DNA of 64,000 nt, taken from contig NZ_QTTQ01000009.1 in NCBI RefSeq assembly GCF_003384935.1, positions 868,001 through 932,000 on the forward strand, in the 5' to 3' direction. Both the position numbers and the translations under genes were made by a program. This document shows positions 36,601-45,924 of the stretch, one piece after another. This DNA comes from Lutibacter oceani. GTDB taxonomy: Bacteria; Bacteroidota; Bacteroidia; Flavobacteriales; Flavobacteriaceae. The stretch's first letter is position 1. Each line of letters starts with the position of its first letter. The notes under the pieces are model-generated. The model worked only from the letters and a program-made list of their open reading frames with translations. It had not been told where the DNA came from and ran no database searches.

Positions 36601-36626
36601 AAAGGGTTTATTTAAATAAACCCTTT
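36601..36626. terminator. Bidirectional terminator at the end of the response regulator gene
   Basis: A perfect 26-base palindrome (AAAGGGTTTATTT and its complement) followed by T residues on the plus strand and preceded by A residues. It overlaps the last codons of the response regulator. Confidence 0.8.
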
Positions 36627-37289
36627 TTCTTTTGCTTTTAATATTAATTCTCTGTCGTCGTTATCTTGAACTTTGAACAATTCCTTCAAGTTTTTCTTTC
36701 TTTTTTCAAGTCCAGCCATAGACATTGGAATTATATTTGGAAGATCTTTCATTTTTGTTCCAATAGACATTTCATATAATAACTGACGGTCAATTTTATC
36801 TAATTTATAGTCGGTAGATGATTGTTTTCTAAATAATTCCAAAACAGATTTGCTATAATATGGAGTACCATCCATTACCGTTTTTATTGAAGTTACCAGT
36901 TCTTCTTTATTTACATCATTTTTTATTAAAAAACCATCTGGATTTACGTTTTTAAGTATTGCTTGAATTCTATAATTATCGTTAAAAGTTGTTGCTACAA
37001 TAATTTTACATTTGGGTAGTACTTTTCTAATATTTACTCCTAAATCTTCCCCGGATAAAATTTTCCCATCTGATGATGGAGGTATTGATATATCTAAAAA
37101 AACAATATCAATTCCATTTTTTTTGGAAGCTTCAGTAATTTTTAAAATTGCTTCATCACAATTAACTGCTATTGCAATTTTAAATGCAATATTAATATTT
37201 TCCGTACTTATATATTCAAACGCACTTTTATATGCATCTGCTATAATTGGATGATCATCAATTATTAATACATTAAATTTTTTACTCAT
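36612..37289 (-). CDS. NarL/FixJ-type response regulator
   Basis: A 225-residue two-component regulator when started at the ATG at 37289 ('MSKKFNVLIIDDHPIIADA'); the frame is open 15 codons upstream but that part overlaps the kinase gene. The receiver has Asp11, Asp12 and the phospho-acceptor Asp66 ('IVFLDISIP'), plus a conserved Lys in 'FLIKNDVN'. The C-terminal part (about 160-225) is a divergent LuxR-type helix-turn-helix. The gene starts 4 bases after the kinase stop and is its cognate partner. A terminator overlaps the end. Confidence 0.88.
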   Translation of the reverse strand: MSKKFNVLIIDDHPIIADAYKSAFEYISTENINIAFKIAIAVNCDEAILKITEASKKNGIDIVFLDISIPPSSDGKILSGEDLGVNIRKVLPKCKIIVATTFNDNYRIQAILKNVNPDGFLIKNDVNKEELVTSIKTVMDGTPYYSKSVLELFRKQSSTDYKLDKIDRQLLYEMSIGTKMKDLPNIIPMSMAGLEKRKKNLKELFKVQDNDDRELILKAKEKGFI

Positions 37290-37293
37290 AATT

Positions 37294-39342
37294 TTATTTT
37301 TGTATTGGGCACCTAACAAAAATAGTGGTTCCATTATTTTTTATAGAATTCACCTTTAAAATACCTTGAAGCTTTTTGGCTCTAGATTCCATATTTTTTA
37401 AACCAATTCCTTTTCTTTTATCATGAATATCAAAACCAATTCCATTATCTTTTATAAATAATTCTAATTGATCTTTATCTCTGTCAATGCTAACCTCTAC
37501 AGAAGAAGCTTTCGCATATTTTATTATGTTTTGAATCGCTTCTTGAAGTATTCTATAAAAGTTAATTTTTATGTCATCATTTATTGAATCCCAGAAAATA
37601 TTCTGACTACAATAGAAGTCATATTCCAAACCATCTAATTTAGTCTTTTTTTCTATTAAATCCTCTATAATTTTTGAAAAATCTTCTTTGGATGATAGAA
37701 TTTCATTTTTTAATTCATGTGAAATTGTTCTAATTTCCTTCTCAATATTCTGAAGTTCATCAATATAATATTTATGTTTTTCAATGGTTATTGTATCTCC
37801 TTTAATATTTAAAAACCCTAAACCTAACCTTGCTCCAAATATTTTTCCCAAAACGCCATCATGTAGATCTTCTGAAATTCTATGACGCTCTTTTAATCGT
37901 CCTTCTTCTAACTTAGATTGCTGTTTTAACATTAAAGAAAATATTTCATGATTAGATTTCTGCTGTTCTTTTTCAAATAATAATTCTTTATTTCTTGTTC
38001 TTTGCACCCTCATAATATATGCAAAAGTTAAGATTACAATTGTTAAAAAACCGCCTAAAGATATTAATACCTTTTCTTTAGAAAGTTTTTCTGTCTCTTG
38101 AATATATTCATCTGTTTCAAAACGAATTCGGGTAAACTTATTACGTATTTTTCTGTCTTCAATTTGCAGACTATCATTTAAATGTACGTACTCTTTCAAG
38201 TATTTATTCGATTTACTATTATCAACATTTGAAAGCAGTAATAAGGTGGCTAATTTATCTCTATTATTATCTACTTGTCCTGCCAAATTATAAGCATCAT
38301 TTGCAAGTTTTATTGCTAAAGTTGTATCTTTTTTTGCTGCAAAAAATTCTGACAAATGTCTTTTACTAATAACTAATCCTGAAATATTATTTAAACTATC
38401 TCTAATGTATAGTGATTTATATAAATCTTCAGCAATATTTATAGTATCTCCCCTTAAAAACTTTGTATAGGCAATATTATCAATAAGTCTGGCATAAAAA
38501 TTGGGATCTTGAGTTTTTAAATCTCTGTATTTTAAGGCTTTTTGAAAATTTTGTATGGCTTTTTCAAAATTATTTAATTTTTGATAAACCAACCCCAAAT
38601 TACTTAAACTCCATTCTTTGAAATTTTTTTTATCATTAACATTTTTTAAATAATCTATCGCTTTGTTATGATAAAAAACTGCTTTATCAAACTCTTCTAA
38701 ATTAGAATATATTAAACCCAAATAATTATAAGACTGGTATAACATTTCATACTTCTTCTCTTTTTCAAACCTTGTAATTGCCTCAAAAATTAATACTTCA
38801 CTTCCTGTATAATCTTTTAAACGCCCCTGTATAAAAGCCATATTATAAAGCATTTTTGCAGTATAATAATCGTGTTTAGCTATTTTAAAATTTTCGTAAG
38901 CTTTATGAAAATGATAATATGCGCTATCCACCACTTCAATATCAGTATAATAATTTCCGAAATTCCAATGGGCATCGCCCATTTTAAAAAAATCATTTAG
39001 TTTTGTAGCTAACTTAAGAGATCCCCTATTCACTTTTTTGAATAAATCATCAATATTATCATATTCAGTTTCAATGGCAATTTCAGCTAATAAAATATTT
39101 TGGATGGAATCTGAATTAATTAATTTGGTTAGTTGATATGCTTTTTCTAAAGCAATTGATTTATTTTCAAAATCTGTGGCTTTAAGTTTTGAAAAATTAA
39201 TCCAATAATTAATACTATCTATTTCCTTAGCGAAATTATTCTCATTATTACTCTTAGTTTCTTTACAACTAAAACATGTTGATATTACTATGGTTAGTAT
39301 AGTAATTCTTATAAGAGATGCTATGTGAAATTTTAGTTTAAT
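37294..39342 (-). CDS. TPR-containing lipoprotein sensor histidine kinase
   Basis: A HisKA_3-type kinase. The open frame runs from a stop at 39367-39369 to 37294. The first ATG/GTG/TTG is a GTG at 39033, but 103 further codons upstream encode a clear lipoprotein signal (KLKFHIASLIRITIL, then STCFSC) and conserved-looking sequence, and a -7 box lies at 39362-39369. I therefore place the start at the ATT at 39342, giving 682 residues; an ATA at 39324 is another option. The extracytoplasmic part has about six tetratricopeptide repeats, followed by one membrane helix (about 426-444), the phospho-acceptor His in 'SEDLHDGVLG' (about 494) and an ATPase domain with 'DNGIGFD'. It pairs with the regulator downstream. 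Confidence 0.78.
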   Translation of the reverse strand: MKLKFHIASLIRITILTIVISTCFSCKETKSNNENNFAKEIDSINYWINFSKLKATDFENKSIALEKAYQLTKLINSDSIQNILLAEIAIETEYDNIDDLFKKVNRGSLKLATKLNDFFKMGDAHWNFGNYYTDIEVVDSAYYHFHKAYENFKIAKHDYYTAKMLYNMAFIQGRLKDYTGSEVLIFEAITRFEKEKKYEMLYQSYNYLGLIYSNLEEFDKAVFYHNKAIDYLKNVNDKKNFKEWSLSNLGLVYQKLNNFEKAIQNFQKALKYRDLKTQDPNFYARLIDNIAYTKFLRGDTINIAEDLYKSLYIRDSLNNISGLVISKRHLSEFFAAKKDTTLAIKLANDAYNLAGQVDNNRDKLATLLLLSNVDNSKSNKYLKEYVHLNDSLQIEDRKIRNKFTRIRFETDEYIQETEKLSKEKVLISLGGFLTIVILTFAYIMRVQRTRNKELLFEKEQQKSNHEIFSLMLKQQSKLEEGRLKERHRISEDLHDGVLGKIFGARLGLGFLNIKGDTITIEKHKYYIDELQNIEKEIRTISHELKNEILSSKEDFSKIIEDLIEKKTKLDGLEYDFYCSQNIFWDSINDDIKINFYRILQEAIQNIIKYAKASSVEVSIDRDKDQLELFIKDNGIGFDIHDKRKGIGLKNMESRAKKLQGILKVNSIKNNGTTIFVRCPIQK

Positions 39343-39361
39343 TGTTAGCCAGGGTTTTAAA

Positions 39362-39449: not shown

Positions 39450-39608
39450 TTAATCTCTGGTTCTTGTAATATCTGCACTTCCTTCTTCACCTGTAGCCTG
39501 CACCTGTTCTTTTGCATATAATTCTTCATCTTCAGCACTATCTGAAGTACAAGAAATAAATAATGATGTAAATAATAAGAAAGCGAAAATAAATTTAATT
39601 GATTTCAT
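39450..39608 (-). CDS. Small acidic lipoprotein (52 residues)
   Basis: A complete small gene. The start ATG is at 39608 and the TAA ends at 39450. Residues 1-19 are a signal peptide (MKSIKFIFAFLLFTSLFIS) and Cys20 is the lipid-modified residue. The mature peptide of 33 residues is acidic at its start (CTSDSAEDEELYAKEQ), a pattern compatible with the Bacteroidota lipoprotein surface-export signal, and ends in 'SADITRTRD'. It has its own terminator, a candidate promoter (39658-39686) and six phased direct repeats upstream. The LytTR regulator gene lies next to it. I do not recognise a named family; a signalling or surface role is inferred from context only. Confidence 0.8.
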   Translation of the reverse strand: MKSIKFIFAFLLFTSLFISCTSDSAEDEELYAKEQVQATGEEGSADITRTRD

Positions 39609-39657: not shown

Positions 39658-39686
39658 CTAAACTATAGTGTAAAAGTAATACACAA
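39658..39686 (-). promoter_or_regulatory. Candidate promoter of the small lipoprotein gene
   Basis: On the minus strand TTG (39684-39686) is followed after 18 bases by TAGTTTAG (39658-39665), one mismatch from TAnnTTTG. It lies about 25 bp downstream of the nearest ACCATTT repeat. Confidence 0.4.
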
Positions 39687-39709: not shown

Positions 39710-39825
39710 ACCATTTATTAGTGAAAACAAACCATTTGTACGTGAAAACAAACCGTTTATACGTGAAATGATTCATTTACAGAAATAAACATACCATTCA
39801 TTAAATAAAACATACCATTTATTTA
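39710..39825. repeat. Six phased ACCATTT-type direct repeats, likely LytTR binding sites
   Basis: Six copies of an ACCATTTAT-like element begin at about 39710, 39731, 39752, 39772, 39793 and 39814 (21, 21, 20, 21 and 21 bp apart, two helical turns). Copies read ACCATTTAT, ACCATTTGT, ACCGTTTAT, TTCATTTAC, ACCATTCAT and ACCATTTAT. The third copy fits the LytTR consensus [TA][AC][CA]GTTN[AG][TG] fully; the others differ mainly by A for G. Spacers of about 12 bp are as seen for AgrA/LytTR sites. The array fills most of the space between the LytTR gene and the small lipoprotein promoter. Confidence 0.75.
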
Positions 39826-39832
39826 AATCATT

Positions 39833-40558
39833 TTAACTTACAGAAAGATAAGAATATTCGGATAAGGATTTATTTATCCTTTTAATACTTGTAATATAGG
39901 TTTTTGTAAAAGGAACTTCATGACTATTTCTTTTAATAGTACAGGTAGATTTTCCAAATTGTATTCTTGAAATAAAATTTTTGTTAATAATGTAGCTTTT
40001 ATGAATTCTGTGAAAATTATTAGGTAAAATATTTTCGAAAGTTTTTAGTGTTTTATAAGCATTTACAATATTACCATCATTCATGTAAAAATCTGTTGTA
40101 TTGTTATCTGCTTTTAAATAAAGTATTTCATCTGTTTTAAGATACTGATAATCTTTATAGGATTTTAAACAGATGGTTTTTCTAGATTGGGCTGGGATTT
40201 TTTTTAATATTTTTAATACTGTTTTTCGAATTTCTAATTCAGCTAAAGGATTTAATAAAAAATCAAAGAAACCAGTTTTTATTACCTCATAAACATTTTT
40301 TTTTGATGAAGAAATTGCAATAAAAACAGGAAAACCTTCATTAAATAAATTTAGTTCTTGCGCAAATTCAAAAGGGTTTTCAATTACATTATCTATATTA
40401 AAAAAAACAACATCAGGGTTTTCTTTTAAAATAATGTTCATAGCATTAGTATAAGTGCAAGAAATGCCTATACAATTAAATGTTTCGTAATCTTCTAAAA
40501 CATTTTTTATGCTTTGAATAGATTCTGGGTCTTTATCTATAATAAAATAATTACGCAT
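39833..40558 (-). CDS. LytTR-family regulator with degenerate receiver domain
   Basis: A 241-residue protein with an N-terminal receiver-like domain (1-118) and a C-terminal LytTR DNA-binding domain (about 140-235; 'YLKADNNTTDFYM', 'FHRIHKSYIINKNFI'). The receiver lacks key residues: the phospho-acceptor position is Asn54 ('VVFFNID'), the acidic pocket reads D-K-D (8-10), and the usual Lys before Pro is Asn ('FLLNPL'). Phosphorylation by a kinase is therefore unlikely and it may work as a constitutive or ligand-controlled factor. No LytS-like kinase is adjacent. The repeat array between it and the small lipoprotein is the probable target. Confidence 0.85.
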   Translation of the reverse strand: MRNYFIIDKDPESIQSIKNVLEDYETFNCIGISCTYTNAMNIILKENPDVVFFNIDNVIENPFEFAQELNLFNEGFPVFIAISSSKKNVYEVIKTGFFDFLLNPLAELEIRKTVLKILKKIPAQSRKTICLKSYKDYQYLKTDEILYLKADNNTTDFYMNDGNIVNAYKTLKTFENILPNNFHRIHKSYIINKNFISRIQFGKSTCTIKRNSHEVPFTKTYITSIKRINKSLSEYSYLSVS

Positions 40559-41228: not shown

Positions 41229-43604
41229 TTATTTATAAAGTTGTTTATTTGGTTTACTATTCATAAAAAACTGCAATTCACCTCCATTCATTATTTCCGC
41301 ATGAGTAATAAAAGGCTTTGTTAATTCTTTACCATTTAATTCCACTTTTTCAACATATACATTTTCATCCGACTGATTTTTTGCCATTACTTTAAAGGTA
41401 TTTCCATTATCAAGATTTAAGATAGCTTCGTGTATTGATGGGCTTCCTAAAGCATAATCAACTGATCCAGGAGCAACTGGATAAAATCCAAGCGAACTAA
41501 AAATATACCACGCACTCATTTGTCCAAAATCATCATTTCCACTAAGTCCATCTGCACCTGTTTGGTATTTTTGCTTTAAAATCATCCTGATTTTATCTTG
41601 AGATTTATAAGGTGTATTTGTCCAATTATATAAATAAGCTACATGATGTGATGGTTCATTTCCATGCACATAATTACCAATAATTCCTTCTCTTGAAATA
41701 TCTTCGGTATTTTCAAAATATTTATCAGGAAGTTCCATTGAAAACAATTTATCTAATCGTTTTGAAAATTTTTCTTTCCCCCCCATCAATTCAATCATTT
41801 CATTTGGTTCATGTGGAACATACAAACTATAATTCCAAGAATTTCCTTCAATAAAACCTTGTCCGTGAGTATCTAATTCATCAAAATCTTTTTTAAAACT
41901 ACCATTGCTTAATTTTGGGCGCATAAAACCTGTTTCAGCATCATATACATTTTTGTAGTTTTCAGAACGCTTCATAAATTCCTCAAAAACAGCAGTATTA
42001 CCCAATTTTTTAGCAGCTTGAGCAACAGCCCAATCATCATAAGCATATTCTAGGGTTTTAGAAACTGAAGCTCCATTTTTATCTTCTGGCACATAACCCA
42101 TATCTATATAATACTGCAATCCATCATAATACCTGGTATTTGCGGTATTAACCATAGCTTCCAATGCTTTTTCCTTGTCAAAATCAGCATTCCCTTTTAC
42201 AATTGCATCTGCTATTACAGATACACTATGATACCCAATCATACACCAGTTTTCATTGCCGTAATGCGACCAAACAGGAAGCATTGTATGTACACTTTGG
42301 TTATAATGCGCCATCATAGATTGTACCATATCCTGATTTCTTTTAGGTTGCAAAATATTAAATAATGGATGTAATGCTCTGTATGTATCCCAAAGTGAAA
42401 AACTGGTATAATTGGTAAATTTTTCTGCATTGTATACATTACGGTCAATTCCCATATAATTGCCATTTACGTCCATATATTCAGTTGGTCCTAAAAAAGC
42501 ATGGTACATAGCTGTATAAAAATTGGTTTTTTCAGTAACACTTTCAGTATCAATATCAATTTTATTTAACTCTTTATTCCACTCGTTTTTAGCTTGTTGT
42601 TTAACCTTTTCAAAATTCCAATGAGGAACTTCTTTTTTCATATTTTCTAAAGCTCCATTAGTACTTACAGGAGAAATAGCAAATTTTATTTGTAGTTTTT
42701 CATCCTTTTTCATATCAAAATCAAAATACATTTTTATTTGTTCTCCAGCAATTTCAGGAAAGTTTTCATCCTGCCTGAATTTTCTCCAAAACCCTCCATA
42801 CGGCTGCTTATCATGTCTTTCTCTTCCATATTTTTGGATAGGTTTATTAAAAGACATTGCAAAATATACTTTTCTGGTTCGTGCCCAGCCATTTGTTTGG
42901 CGGTATCCAGTTACCAGAGTATCATTTTCAACGCGCACAAAAGTCCAAATATTTTTACTATCGTAATTATAAATACCAGCCATTAAATCTAAAATAATAT
43001 GCGATGTTTCTTCCTTTGGAAACGTGTATTGGTGCATACCCACTCTTGTAGTTGCAGTCATTTCAGCTTTAATATTGTAATCATCTAAAATAACACTGTA
43101 ATAACCAGCTTCAGCGGTTTCTCTTTCATGTGAAAACCGTGAACGGTACCCACTATCAGGATTTGTAGCTGTTCCGGGATTTAATTTTAATTCACCAGTT
43201 GTTGGCATAATTAAAAAATCGCCCAAATCTGAATGCCCAGTGCCACTAAAATGTGTATGGCTAAAACCTACAATTGTTTTATCATCATATTGATAACCAG
43301 CACAATACTTATAAACATCTGGATTATAATGACCATCTACTGCATAAGGTATTGTATCAGTATCAGGGCTCAATTGAACGCTTCCAAAAGGAACTGTAAC
43401 GCCTGGATATGTATGTCCCATTTTAGCTGTACCAATCATAGGATCTACATATTTAGCAAAGTCTTTAAGGTTTTTATCCATTTTTTCTGAATGTTTTTCA
43501 TCCCCAGTAGTTGAATTACAACTGCTAAAAAATAATAATGAGCTCATAATAATTCCTAAAGAAATTACTTTGAATACCGAATTTAATTTATGTAATTCAA
43601 CCAT
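41229..43604 (-). CDS. GH92 alpha-mannosidase lipoprotein
   Basis: A 791-residue glycoside hydrolase of family 92, whose members are calcium-dependent exo-alpha-mannosidases. The signal peptide ends in a lipobox (LLFFSSC, Cys29). GH92 landmarks are the start of the N-terminal domain 'YVDPMIGTAKMGHTYPG', 'AGYQYDDKTIVGFSHTHFSG', 'SFSLWDTYRALHPLF', 'EGNSWNYSLYVPHE' and 'SGNDDFGQMSAWYIFSSLGFYPVAPG'. A lipid anchor suggests the outer membrane. It follows the second GH92 by 22 bases in one operon. Linkage specificity cannot be read from sequence. Confidence 0.93.
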   Translation of the reverse strand: MVELHKLNSVFKVISLGIIMSSLLFFSSCNSTTGDEKHSEKMDKNLKDFAKYVDPMIGTAKMGHTYPGVTVPFGSVQLSPDTDTIPYAVDGHYNPDVYKYCAGYQYDDKTIVGFSHTHFSGTGHSDLGDFLIMPTTGELKLNPGTATNPDSGYRSRFSHERETAEAGYYSVILDDYNIKAEMTATTRVGMHQYTFPKEETSHIILDLMAGIYNYDSKNIWTFVRVENDTLVTGYRQTNGWARTRKVYFAMSFNKPIQKYGRERHDKQPYGGFWRKFRQDENFPEIAGEQIKMYFDFDMKKDEKLQIKFAISPVSTNGALENMKKEVPHWNFEKVKQQAKNEWNKELNKIDIDTESVTEKTNFYTAMYHAFLGPTEYMDVNGNYMGIDRNVYNAEKFTNYTSFSLWDTYRALHPLFNILQPKRNQDMVQSMMAHYNQSVHTMLPVWSHYGNENWCMIGYHSVSVIADAIVKGNADFDKEKALEAMVNTANTRYYDGLQYYIDMGYVPEDKNGASVSKTLEYAYDDWAVAQAAKKLGNTAVFEEFMKRSENYKNVYDAETGFMRPKLSNGSFKKDFDELDTHGQGFIEGNSWNYSLYVPHEPNEMIELMGGKEKFSKRLDKLFSMELPDKYFENTEDISREGIIGNYVHGNEPSHHVAYLYNWTNTPYKSQDKIRMILKQKYQTGADGLSGNDDFGQMSAWYIFSSLGFYPVAPGSVDYALGSPSIHEAILNLDNGNTFKVMAKNQSDENVYVEKVELNGKELTKPFITHAEIMNGGELQFFMNSKPNKQLYK

Positions 43605-43626
43605 TTAGAAATAAATTTTTATTTAA

Positions 43627-45924
43627 TTATTTTTCATTAGATAATGAATACGGAAAATCTTCTTTATTAATTCCCCTATTTTTATTGGGTACTTTATCCA
43701 TTTCAATATTAATAATAGCTCCTTTCATTAATTCTGAATAATTTAAATAATTTTTGGTGTATTCTTTTCCATTAAAGGTCATATTTTTAATATAACGATT
43801 TTCGTTGCTATTTTCTGGAGCATTAATTATAATTTCATTTCCATTTTCAAGATTCAATGTAATTTTTTTAAACAACGGAGCACCAATTACATACTCGTCT
43901 GTAGCTGGAGCAACAGAATAAAAGCCCATTGCAGAAAAAACATACCAAGCTGAAGTTTGTCCGTTATCTTCATCGCCACAATACCCATCTGGTGTTGGCA
44001 AATACATCCTATTCATAGTTTCTCTTACCCAATATTGACTTTTCCAAGGTTGCCCTGCATAATTGTATAAATAAGTCATATGCTGAATTGGTTGGTTTCC
44101 GTGAGCATATTGTCCCATATTGGCAATTTGCATTTCTCGTATTTCATGTATTACACCTCCATAATATTTATCTCCAAATATTGGAGGAAGTGAAAAAACC
44201 TGATCTAATTGCGCAACAAATTGATCATTACCACCCATTAAATCAACCAAACCTTGCATGTCATGAAAAACGGACCAGGAATAATGCCAACTATTTCCTT
44301 CGGTAAAATCTCCTCCCCAATCAAAAGGGCTAAAAGGGGTTCTAAATTCTCCTTTTTCACTTTTCCCACGCATCAATTTTGATGCAGGGTCAAACAATTT
44401 TTTATAATTTAAGCTTCTATTTTTATAAAGCATTATTTCTTTTTTGGGCTTATTTAATGATTTTGCTAATTGGTAAATTGAAAAATCATCATAGGCATAT
44501 TCTAAGGTTCTTGCAGCACTTTCATTAATTCCAATATCAAAAGGCACGTATCCTAATTTTTTATAGTATGCTGCACCTGCTCTACCAACAGCTGTCATAG
44601 GTCCCGCATTATTAGCTCCATGAATTAAAGCTTCATATAGCTTTTCAATATCATATTTATAATTATTTCCTATTTTTAAATATGCATCTGAAACTACTGA
44701 AGCAGAATTGTTACCCACCATAATATTCCGTAAACCTGGACTTGCCCACTCTGGCAACCAGCCTGATTCTTTATAGGCATTTACAAGACCTTCCTGCATT
44801 TGAGCACTCATTTCAGGATACATAAAGTTTAGGAATGGAAATAAGGATCTAAATGTATCCCAAAAACCAGTATCTGTAAACATATAGCCGGGTAAAACCT
44901 CACCATTATATGGGCTGTAATGTACTACGTTTCCATTTTCATCATATTCAAAAAACTTTCTTGGAAATAATAACGAACGGTATAAACAAGAATAAAAAGT
45001 TTTAAACTGATCAGCTGTTCCGCCTTCAACTTTTATTTTACTTAATTCTTTGTTCCAATTAGATTTCCCTAATTCTTTAAGTGCGTCAAAATCATTGTTT
45101 CCAATTTCCTTTAAGTTTCTTTCAGCTTGCTCATAACTTATAAAAGATGATGCTACTTTTGCATTTACTTTTTCTCCTTTTGAAGTTTTAAATCCGATAA
45201 TAGCACCTGCATGGTTTGATTTTGACACTAAAGATTCTGATAATTCAGCATCACTAAATGTGTTTGTAATTGTGAATTTTTTATCAAATTTAATTACAAA
45301 ATAATTCTTAAAATTTTCTGGTACACCTCCACTGTTTCGGGTTGTATAACCTATAATTTTATTTTCTTCAGGAATAATTTTCACATAAGAACCTCTATCA
45401 AAAGCATCAATAACAACGTAAGCATTATCTGTTTCAGGAAACGTAAATCTGAATCTTGCAGCGCGATCAGTAGGTGTTATTTCAGTAGTAACATCGTAAT
45501 CCGCTAAATAAACACTGTAATAATACGGTGTAACAATTTCTGCTTTATGCGAAAACCAACTTTCTCGTTCTTCTTCCTTAAAAACCTTTTTACCGGTTAC
45601 AGGCATTATTGAAAACTGTCCGTAATCGTTCATCCAAGGTGATGGTTGATGTGTTTGCTTAAATCCTTTTATTTTGGTAGCATCATAGGTATATGCCCAA
45701 CCGTCTCCCATTTTTCCAGTTTGTGGTGTCCAAAAATTCATTCCCCAAGGAGTAGCAATAGCCGGATATGTATTTCCGTTAGATAAACTATGATGAGAAT
45801 CGGTTCCCATAAGTGGATTTACCCAATCTACTGGATTATCAATAACATTAATTTTTGTAGTTTGTGCCAATAGAAACTGGAAGCAAAAAACAGTAGTTAA
45901 TAAGGTTGTTAAAATTGTTTTCAT
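43627..45924 (-). CDS. GH92 alpha-mannosidase, periplasmic
   Basis: A 765-residue GH92 protein with a cleavable signal peptide (1-20, ending LLAQ) rather than a lipobox. Landmarks are 'WVNPLMGTDSHHSLSNGNTYPA', 'FTDTGFWDTFRSLFPFLN', 'EGNSWHYSWSVFHD' and 'CGDEDNGQTSAWYVFSAMGFYSVAPA'. It differs from the neighbour at the entry motif (GTDSHHSLSNG versus GTAKMGHTYPG), so the two probably cut different alpha-mannosidic linkages or act in different compartments. It lies between the GH43-like gene and the lipoprotein GH92. Confidence 0.93.
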   Translation of the reverse strand: MKTILTTLLTTVFCFQFLLAQTTKINVIDNPVDWVNPLMGTDSHHSLSNGNTYPAIATPWGMNFWTPQTGKMGDGWAYTYDATKIKGFKQTHQPSPWMNDYGQFSIMPVTGKKVFKEEERESWFSHKAEIVTPYYYSVYLADYDVTTEITPTDRAARFRFTFPETDNAYVVIDAFDRGSYVKIIPEENKIIGYTTRNSGGVPENFKNYFVIKFDKKFTITNTFSDAELSESLVSKSNHAGAIIGFKTSKGEKVNAKVASSFISYEQAERNLKEIGNNDFDALKELGKSNWNKELSKIKVEGGTADQFKTFYSCLYRSLLFPRKFFEYDENGNVVHYSPYNGEVLPGYMFTDTGFWDTFRSLFPFLNFMYPEMSAQMQEGLVNAYKESGWLPEWASPGLRNIMVGNNSASVVSDAYLKIGNNYKYDIEKLYEALIHGANNAGPMTAVGRAGAAYYKKLGYVPFDIGINESAARTLEYAYDDFSIYQLAKSLNKPKKEIMLYKNRSLNYKKLFDPASKLMRGKSEKGEFRTPFSPFDWGGDFTEGNSWHYSWSVFHDMQGLVDLMGGNDQFVAQLDQVFSLPPIFGDKYYGGVIHEIREMQIANMGQYAHGNQPIQHMTYLYNYAGQPWKSQYWVRETMNRMYLPTPDGYCGDEDNGQTSAWYVFSAMGFYSVAPATDEYVIGAPLFKKITLNLENGNEIIINAPENSNENRYIKNMTFNGKEYTKNYLNYSELMKGAIINIEMDKVPNKNRGINKEDFPYSLSNEK

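Follow-up and report, generated by a model that had tools for sequence, protein, structure and literature searches.

The window, i.e. the whole 64,000-nucleotide stretch of the Lutibacter oceani genome analysed here (C1:868001-932000 of genome G000), carries a gene cassette on its minus strand, in which a LytTR regulator gene is followed by an array of direct repeats, a small lipoprotein gene, a TPR histidine kinase gene and a response regulator gene:

39833..40558, minus strand: LytTR regulator, 241 aa, with a receiver-like and a LytTR DNA-binding domain (Pfam)
39450..39608, minus strand: small lipoprotein, 52 aa, with a lipobox signal peptide and an acidic tail (ORF list; codon bias of relatives)
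37294..39033, minus strand: TPR histidine kinase (Pfam TPR and HATPase_c above cut-off, HisKA_3 just below)
36612..37334, minus strand: response regulator, overlapping the 3' end of the kinase gene (Pfam Response_reg)

Two adjoining long genes on the minus strand at window positions 41229-45924 apparently encode related glycoside hydrolases, which we take to be alpha-mannosidase-like.

The initial annotation had described six ACCATTT-type repeats spaced by 21, 21, 20, 21 and 21 bp, and both coordinates and spacings proved accurate, with the repeats themselves at 39710-39822. On the plus strand, the cores start at 39710 (ACCATTTAT), 39731 (ACCATTTGT), 39752 (ACCGTTTAT), 39772 (TTCATTTAC), 39793 (ACCATTCAT) and 39814 (ACCATTTAT). 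Five of the six match ACC[AG]TT[TC][AG][TC] perfectly, and the fourth, which follows the 20-bp step, has two mismatches. Read in the direction of transcription (both neighbouring genes are on the minus strand), the unit is TTTCAC..AATAAATGGT. With steps of 20-22 bp and at most two mismatches per core, this chain of six is the longest in the window on either strand. When the 223-bp intergenic region was dinucleotide-shuffled 5000 times, the longest chain had four members (1/5000), as did the longest in 20 one-strand shuffles of the whole window (2/20).

The cassette is shared by many related bacteria. A genus search found the LytTR gene at 61-82% identity in 20 of 37 other Lutibacter genomes; the remaining 17 hold only relatives of about 40% identity or less. 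A scan of genome records returned 193 relatives, of which the best 80 were retained, nearly all labelled Flavobacteriaceae. One of them (L093), whose stretch has no stop codon, was left out; adding five of the 21 whole-genome loci and discarding a duplicate gave the final set of 83 distinct loci. These are the closest relatives and not the whole family; counts over them are not independent and are biased to close relatives, because the loci are related and derive from the best 80 of 193.

Periodicity is visible in these loci even when no motif is assumed. Within the 75 bp after the LytTR stop codon, self-similarity across the 83 loci was 0.420 at lag 21, 0.360 at lag 42 and 0.24-0.32 at other lags, and a control stretch 300-375 bp downstream reached at most 0.340, at multiples of three. 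The cassette motif, trained on 63 loci (one of which, L149, is labelled uncultured Lutibacter) with 20 Lutibacter-group loci held out, reads TTTCACTMAYARAA on the gene strand, and its most conserved letters are the C and T of CACT (97% and 91%). The initial annotation had named a missing repeat spacing in orthologous loci as one ground for refutation, and this comparison did not refute it: at least three sites at 20-22 bp follow the LytTR stop codon in 54 of the 83 loci, namely in 42 of the 63 trained loci, for which training and test set coincide, and in 12 of the 20 held-out ones. At least two sites were present in 70 loci, and 29 loci have fewer than three detectable sites; among 1660 shuffles, at least three sites occurred in 0.12% and at least two in 6.8%. 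The proximal site starts 43-45 bp after the stop codon in 36 of the 54 loci. Three sites are the usual form of this putative operator in relatives.

Chains of at least three sites were absent from the opposite strand and from the LytTR gene itself in all 83 loci, and from the DNA after the lipoprotein gene in all 72 loci concerned. Upstream of the LytTR gene, at least three sites were found in 1 of 82 loci and at least two in 8 of 82, and autoregulation through such sites is not supported on the former count. The repeats might also be nothing but curved or low-complexity A/T DNA that has no dedicated binder, since the region is A/T-rich and every unit contains A/T tracts. However, the letters conserved best are the C and T of CACT and not A-tracts, and the chains are specific for strand, place and spacing, which makes this explanation highly improbable.

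A search of 199 genomes of the family with the cassette motif gave 80 matches compared to 56 in the reversed control, and a family-wide regulon of this motif was not established; an off-register (20-bp) control pattern had matches in 3 of the 199 genomes. Seven of the 30 family loci taken from the cassette-motif matches adjoin a LytTR gene, and two of these seven, L211 and L213, are probably the cassette itself. In four loci of other family genomes (L201, L214, L217 and L226), TTCACTAAAAAAAA-type repeats at 21 bp stand beside other LytTR genes. Repeats of 21 bp beside a LytTR gene may be a general layout for flavobacterial LytTR systems.

The individual sites of the window array were scored with the cassette motif and with a second motif, AAAYGGT, which recurs across Lutibacter:

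39711..39726, minus strand: site 1 (proximal), TTTCACTAATAAATGG; cassette motif 10.8 bits, Lutibacter-wide motif 16.4 bits
39732..39747, minus strand: site 2, TTTCACGTACAAATGG; cassette 5.3 bits, Lutibacter-wide 12.6 bits
39753..39768, minus strand: site 3, TTTCACGTATAAACGG; cassette 4.2 bits, Lutibacter-wide 11.7 bits
39773..39788, minus strand: site 4, degenerate and offset by 20 bp, TTATTTCTGTAAATGA; cassette -5.6 bits, Lutibacter-wide 1.6 bits
39794..39809, minus strand: site 5, Lutibacter-wide motif only, TTTATTTAATGAATGG; cassette -7.8 bits, Lutibacter-wide 11.7 bits
39815..39830, minus strand: site 6 (distal), Lutibacter-wide motif only, TGATTTAAATAAATGG; cassette -9.9 bits, Lutibacter-wide 13.9 bits

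The array has a 3+3 structure: sites 1-3 match both motifs, site 4 matches neither well, and sites 5 and 6 match the Lutibacter-wide motif only. The C that is 97% conserved in relatives is kept only in the three proximal sites, and a stricter profile threshold, which site 4 does not reach, leaves only these three as a chain. One other Lutibacter locus, L006, has a chain of seven sites: its three proximal sites agree with the cassette motif, and of its four distal sites three match the Lutibacter-wide motif only; the other 19 Lutibacter loci have one to three sites each by the same profile script. Six repeats in a row, as the initial annotation had seen them, are thus present, but three are usual in relatives, and a single six-site operator was dropped in view of the differing scores on the two motifs. 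Little weight seems to fall on the earlier remark that one copy fits the published LytTR consensus exactly; what relatives share is TTTCACTMAYARAA on the gene strand. Of the six window sites only site 3 carries GTT. We set the published consensus aside as a key to the array, since relatives conserve CACT and not the GTT core. LytTR sites have no common consensus according to the YpdB paper (PMC4847170).

Alignment on the proximal site revealed a promoter at a fixed distance from the array in the 54 loci with at least three sites:

39671..39678, minus strand: -7 promoter element TACTTTTA, 48 bp from the start of site 1 (offset 48 in 43/54 loci)

The -7 box, as a match to TAnnTTWD, has an offset of exactly 48 bp, counted from the first base of the proximal site, in 43 of these loci, and the next commonest offset occurs in 3. 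The T, A, T and T of TAnnTT at columns 48, 49, 52 and 53 are present in 50, 50, 51 and 52 of the 54 loci, respectively, and the spacer columns 16-47 hold at most 0.27 bits. No conserved -33 element was found between array and promoter in the aligned loci; the -33 element that the initial annotation had proposed is not conserved in relatives, and the conserved element is the -7 box. Shared descent alone hardly explains this geometry, because the letters of the spacer have drifted and its length has stayed fixed. TAnnTTTG at -12 to -5 is given as the main promoter box of Flavobacterium psychrophilum in the available portion of PMC9723704, and on the scale of that box the proximal unit lies at about -60 to -45, its end 32 bp from the -7 box.

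The fixed distance to the -7 box, together with the missing -33 conservation, points to an activator operator. Alternatively, the LytTR protein could be a repressor whose filaments on the array silence the lipoprotein gene, in the manner of CoxC, a LytTR protein that acts as a repressor on three direct repeats spaced by 18-21 bp according to the text of PMC11347149. The same text places the CoxC operator across the -35 box, however, whereas the proximal unit here stops well short of the -7 box and the lack of a conserved -33 is the layout expected for an activator. Repression is therefore a decidedly unlikely reading.

The window LytTR protein matches the Pfam LytTR domain with 4.4e-16, and its match to Response_reg (3.5e-6, 27.6 bits) lies under the cut-off of 30.2. 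An alignment of 21 Lutibacter proteins places Asn at the phospho-acceptor position (residue 54) of the window protein, which therefore lacks the Asp of a response regulator controlled by phosphorylation. Across the 83 proteins, this position holds Asn in 71, Asp in 8, and Ser, Cys, Thr and His once each. A phospho-switch is unlikely given the Asn in 71 of 83 proteins, and the regulator of the cassette probably does not need its own receiver to be phosphorylated.

The AAAYGGT motif extends beyond the cassette. In the 21 cassette genomes, pairs at 21 bp gave 164 matches compared to 22 in the reversed control; in the 17 genomes lacking the cassette, the figures were 102 and 21. Each Lutibacter genome has 0 to 13 matches. 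The dedicated switch first proposed is not supported, since the AAAYGGT version also exists in genomes that lack this LytTR gene. We read 73 AAAYGGT loci (33 returned by searches and 40 chosen from the matches listed), and 72 of them, the window array included twice, have at least two sites. Judged by eye from their N-termini, the products of the genes that follow are CAP-like lipoproteins at 16 of the 72 loci, LRR-like proteins at 8 and dihydrolipoyl-dehydrogenase-like proteins at 7. At G000:C3:460725-460758 (L073), an AAAYGGT array precedes the gene of a CAP-domain lipoprotein (Pfam PF00188), and by eye comparable arrays stand before CAP-like lipoprotein genes in other Lutibacter genomes. 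A strict -7 box was located 47-50 bp from the proximal AAAYGGT site 12 times and 58-61 bp from it 11 times; the geometry of these arrays is less tight, and the two distances differ by about one helical turn.

Some AAAYGGT arrays lie near a LytTR gene. One, at G000:C1:981633-981663, with counterparts in 11 other genomes, is near a LytTR gene about 27% identical to that of the window. Among the matches listed, such a LytTR gene, taken as one gene across genomes by match alone, has an AAAYGGT array at a distance of 1.4-1.9 kb in 12 of 19 Lutibacter genomes. In all 12 the motif lies on the strand opposite to that gene, which is not the case in the cassette. Each of the six window sites obtains a better score with the Lutibacter-wide motif than with the cassette motif, a rough comparison as the two profiles differ in total information, and the adjacent LytTR protein is therefore not necessarily the principal binder. 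The window array may be shared by a second LytTR protein. The array in Lutibacter could even be run by a genus-wide LytTR regulator, for example the paralogue at G000:C1:983216-983848, which has a strong Pfam receiver match and is intact in this respect, with the adjacent LytTR gene merely a neighbour. The excess of AAAYGGT pairs over the control with and without the cassette, the arrays that precede genes of CAP-like lipoproteins, LRR-like proteins and other products, the array near such a LytTR gene in the 12 genomes and the preference of six out of six window sites all agree with this. Outside Lutibacter, however, a different sequence occupies the same place with the same geometry and is tied to the cassette LytTR gene, and in the window the cassette C is kept only by the three proximal sites, whose distance to the -7 box is the conserved one. 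We regard control by a genus-wide regulator as possible, though rather less probable than control by the adjacent LytTR protein.

The lipoprotein frame is open after the LytTR stop codon in 20 of the 21 Lutibacter loci, as judged by eye, and in L025 it closes after 24 codons. A downstream lipoprotein of 46-101 aa (median 53) is present in 72 of the 83 loci, and its frame is coding, as the mismatches at codon positions 1, 2 and 3 numbered 124, 83 and 282 in 16 close pairs of equal length. The tails are acidic (median net charge -9), and their mean identity is 25%, compared to 42% for the signal peptides (161 ungapped pairs of equal length). In several genera a tail consists of a short stretch repeated two to five times in nearly the same form. 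Eight of the 72 repeat a five-letter stretch, and the tail of L134 has a unit of about 13 residues five times, one copy altered. In Robiginitalea (L143 and L146), the tails are repeats with CxxC pairs. Among four lipoproteins tested, none reached the Pfam or NCBIfam cut-off of a known family, and three gave weak PG1828-family matches over their first 27-38 residues. By eye, a terminator-like hairpin followed by T's lies 3' of the window lipoprotein gene, so that the kinase may have its own promoter.

A homologue of the TPR kinase is encoded downstream in 70 of the 83 loci; lipoprotein and kinase are both present in 69, and in these 69 of the 72 lipoprotein loci the kinase gene comes next. An N-terminal hydrophobic stretch was found in 61 of the 70 kinases, and 50 also have a lipobox-like motif by a loose pattern, from which we infer that the TPR kinase is an exported sensor. 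The window kinase is outside this count, because a usual start codon is lacking there: the frame remains open upstream of the GTG at 39033 to about 39354 and includes the lipobox-like stretch STCFSCKET, and no ATG, GTG or TTG occurs in this upstream part (39033-39354, minus strand). Either an unusual start codon or a sequence error could be behind this. A response regulator takes the place of the kinase in nine loci, and neither is present in four, two of which (L092 and L138) have little downstream DNA. In the nine (L096, L097, L100, L103, L104, L105, L107, L110 and L111), the LytTR gene and the array, with three sites each and two in L110, are immediately followed by a homologue of the window's response regulator at 36612..37334; small lipoprotein and TPR kinase are both missing. 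All nine belong to one well-supported group of 12, which includes three loci with lipoprotein and kinase, and they therefore reflect few events.

These patterns of co-occurrence allow a bolder idea, namely that the cassette is a Gram-negative peptide-signalling system. A LytTR filament would induce the lipoprotein, whose acidic tail, either displayed or released, would be the signal for the exported TPR domain of the kinase, and in Lutibacter the cassette operator would have merged with the one serving a second LytTR regulon, of surface proteins. The kinase next to the lipoprotein in 69 of 72 loci, the joint absence of both from the nine regulator loci, the five-letter repeats in 8 of 72 tails and the lower likeness of tails than of signal peptides are hints in this direction, but we consider the idea unlikely and offer it as speculation.

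Our preferred reading, which we think likely, is that the array is a LytTR activator operator through which the adjacent regulator drives the lipoprotein gene, and that in the window three sites were extended to six, possibly for shared use. From the arrangement of the DNA we infer binding, activation, the identity of the binder and the sharing. LytTR subunits would line up head to tail along a single face of the DNA, each bound to a 21-bp unit of two helical turns, and the proximal subunit would sit just upstream of RNA polymerase and substitute for the missing -33 contact. The promoter with its -7 box at fixed distance would then express the small lipoprotein, and could feed the adjoining TPR kinase/regulator pathway by read-through or via its product. 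The adjacent LytTR protein is the likeliest candidate for the operating regulator and would probably act without phosphorylation of its own receiver. The extension to six sites may reflect drift towards, or capture by, the second, genus-wide LytTR system, which apparently uses the drifted sequence, and two regulators may thus meet on the array. What endures of the initial annotation is a phased LytTR-type operator that adjoins a LytTR gene and faces the lipoprotein promoter at an activator position, with spacing and promoter distance conserved; the six-site unit, the dedicated use and the -33 element do not.

The conserved promoter represents a natural alignment of an activator site at fixed spacing to a -7 box that has no -33 partner, which makes the activation geometry directly testable. 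With its uncharacterised small lipoprotein and its TPR kinase, the cassette is a candidate envelope or peptide signalling system of a large bacterial family. The six-site array could be an example of operator growth, and perhaps of operator sharing by two regulators.

Among open PubMed Central papers, no study was found of this cassette (among the titles and starts of abstracts listed), of LytTR proteins in Lutibacter, of a link between flavobacterial LytTR, lipoprotein and direct repeats, or of LytTR promoter activation in Bacteroidota. Two flavobacterial papers that name LytTR are, in their accessible parts, unrelated to the cassette.

The agr system of Staphylococcus aureus has a gene for a small exported peptide precursor nearby, and the cassette is alike in that a small putative exported precursor is encoded beside a kinase and a LytTR gene, an order found in 69 of the 83 loci. 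The AgrA receiver is phosphorylated, whereas the cassette regulator has Asn at the phospho-site. AgrA binds direct repeats just upstream of the suboptimally spaced promoters P2 and P3, which is similar to the layout described here, but does so at a repeat pair centred about -60 in the available text (PMC4227749), compared to three to six repeats here.

LytTR proteins in general typically use direct repeats that have spacers of 10-13 bp and lie upstream of promoters (PMC4847170, PMC11347149, PMC6193735). The present array agrees in its adjacent LytTR gene, in its 21-bp period, as expected for repeats of 9-11 bp with spacers of 10-13 bp, and in its position just upstream of a promoter. Usually two repeats are bound, and three by RcoM-1 and CoxC, in the excerpts of PMC11347149 and PMC4847170; in our loci, a pair is replaced by the usual three in relatives and six in the window. 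The RcoM-1 and CoxC operators, in which three LytTR direct repeats follow one another at about two helical turns, resemble this arrangement, but these proteins are CO-responsive, have other sensor domains and another repeat sequence, and a six-site case is absent from the accessible text (PMC11347149). The LytTR Regulatory Systems HdrRM and BrsRM likewise use direct repeats, mostly with 12-bp spacers, in a promoter-proximal upstream position; they differ in autoregulating their own operon and in their paired inhibitory membrane protein, as far as the excerpt tells (PMC6193735), whereas the cassette array lies downstream of its regulator gene. As a model for head-to-tail oligomers on varying numbers of direct repeats, BldC of Streptomyces is similar, although it is an unrelated MerR-like protein with 9-bp repeats in the text available (PMC5859096). 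The kind of operator is known; as far as our search reached, the conserved cassette, its fixed geometry, the Asn receiver and the composite six-site array are new.
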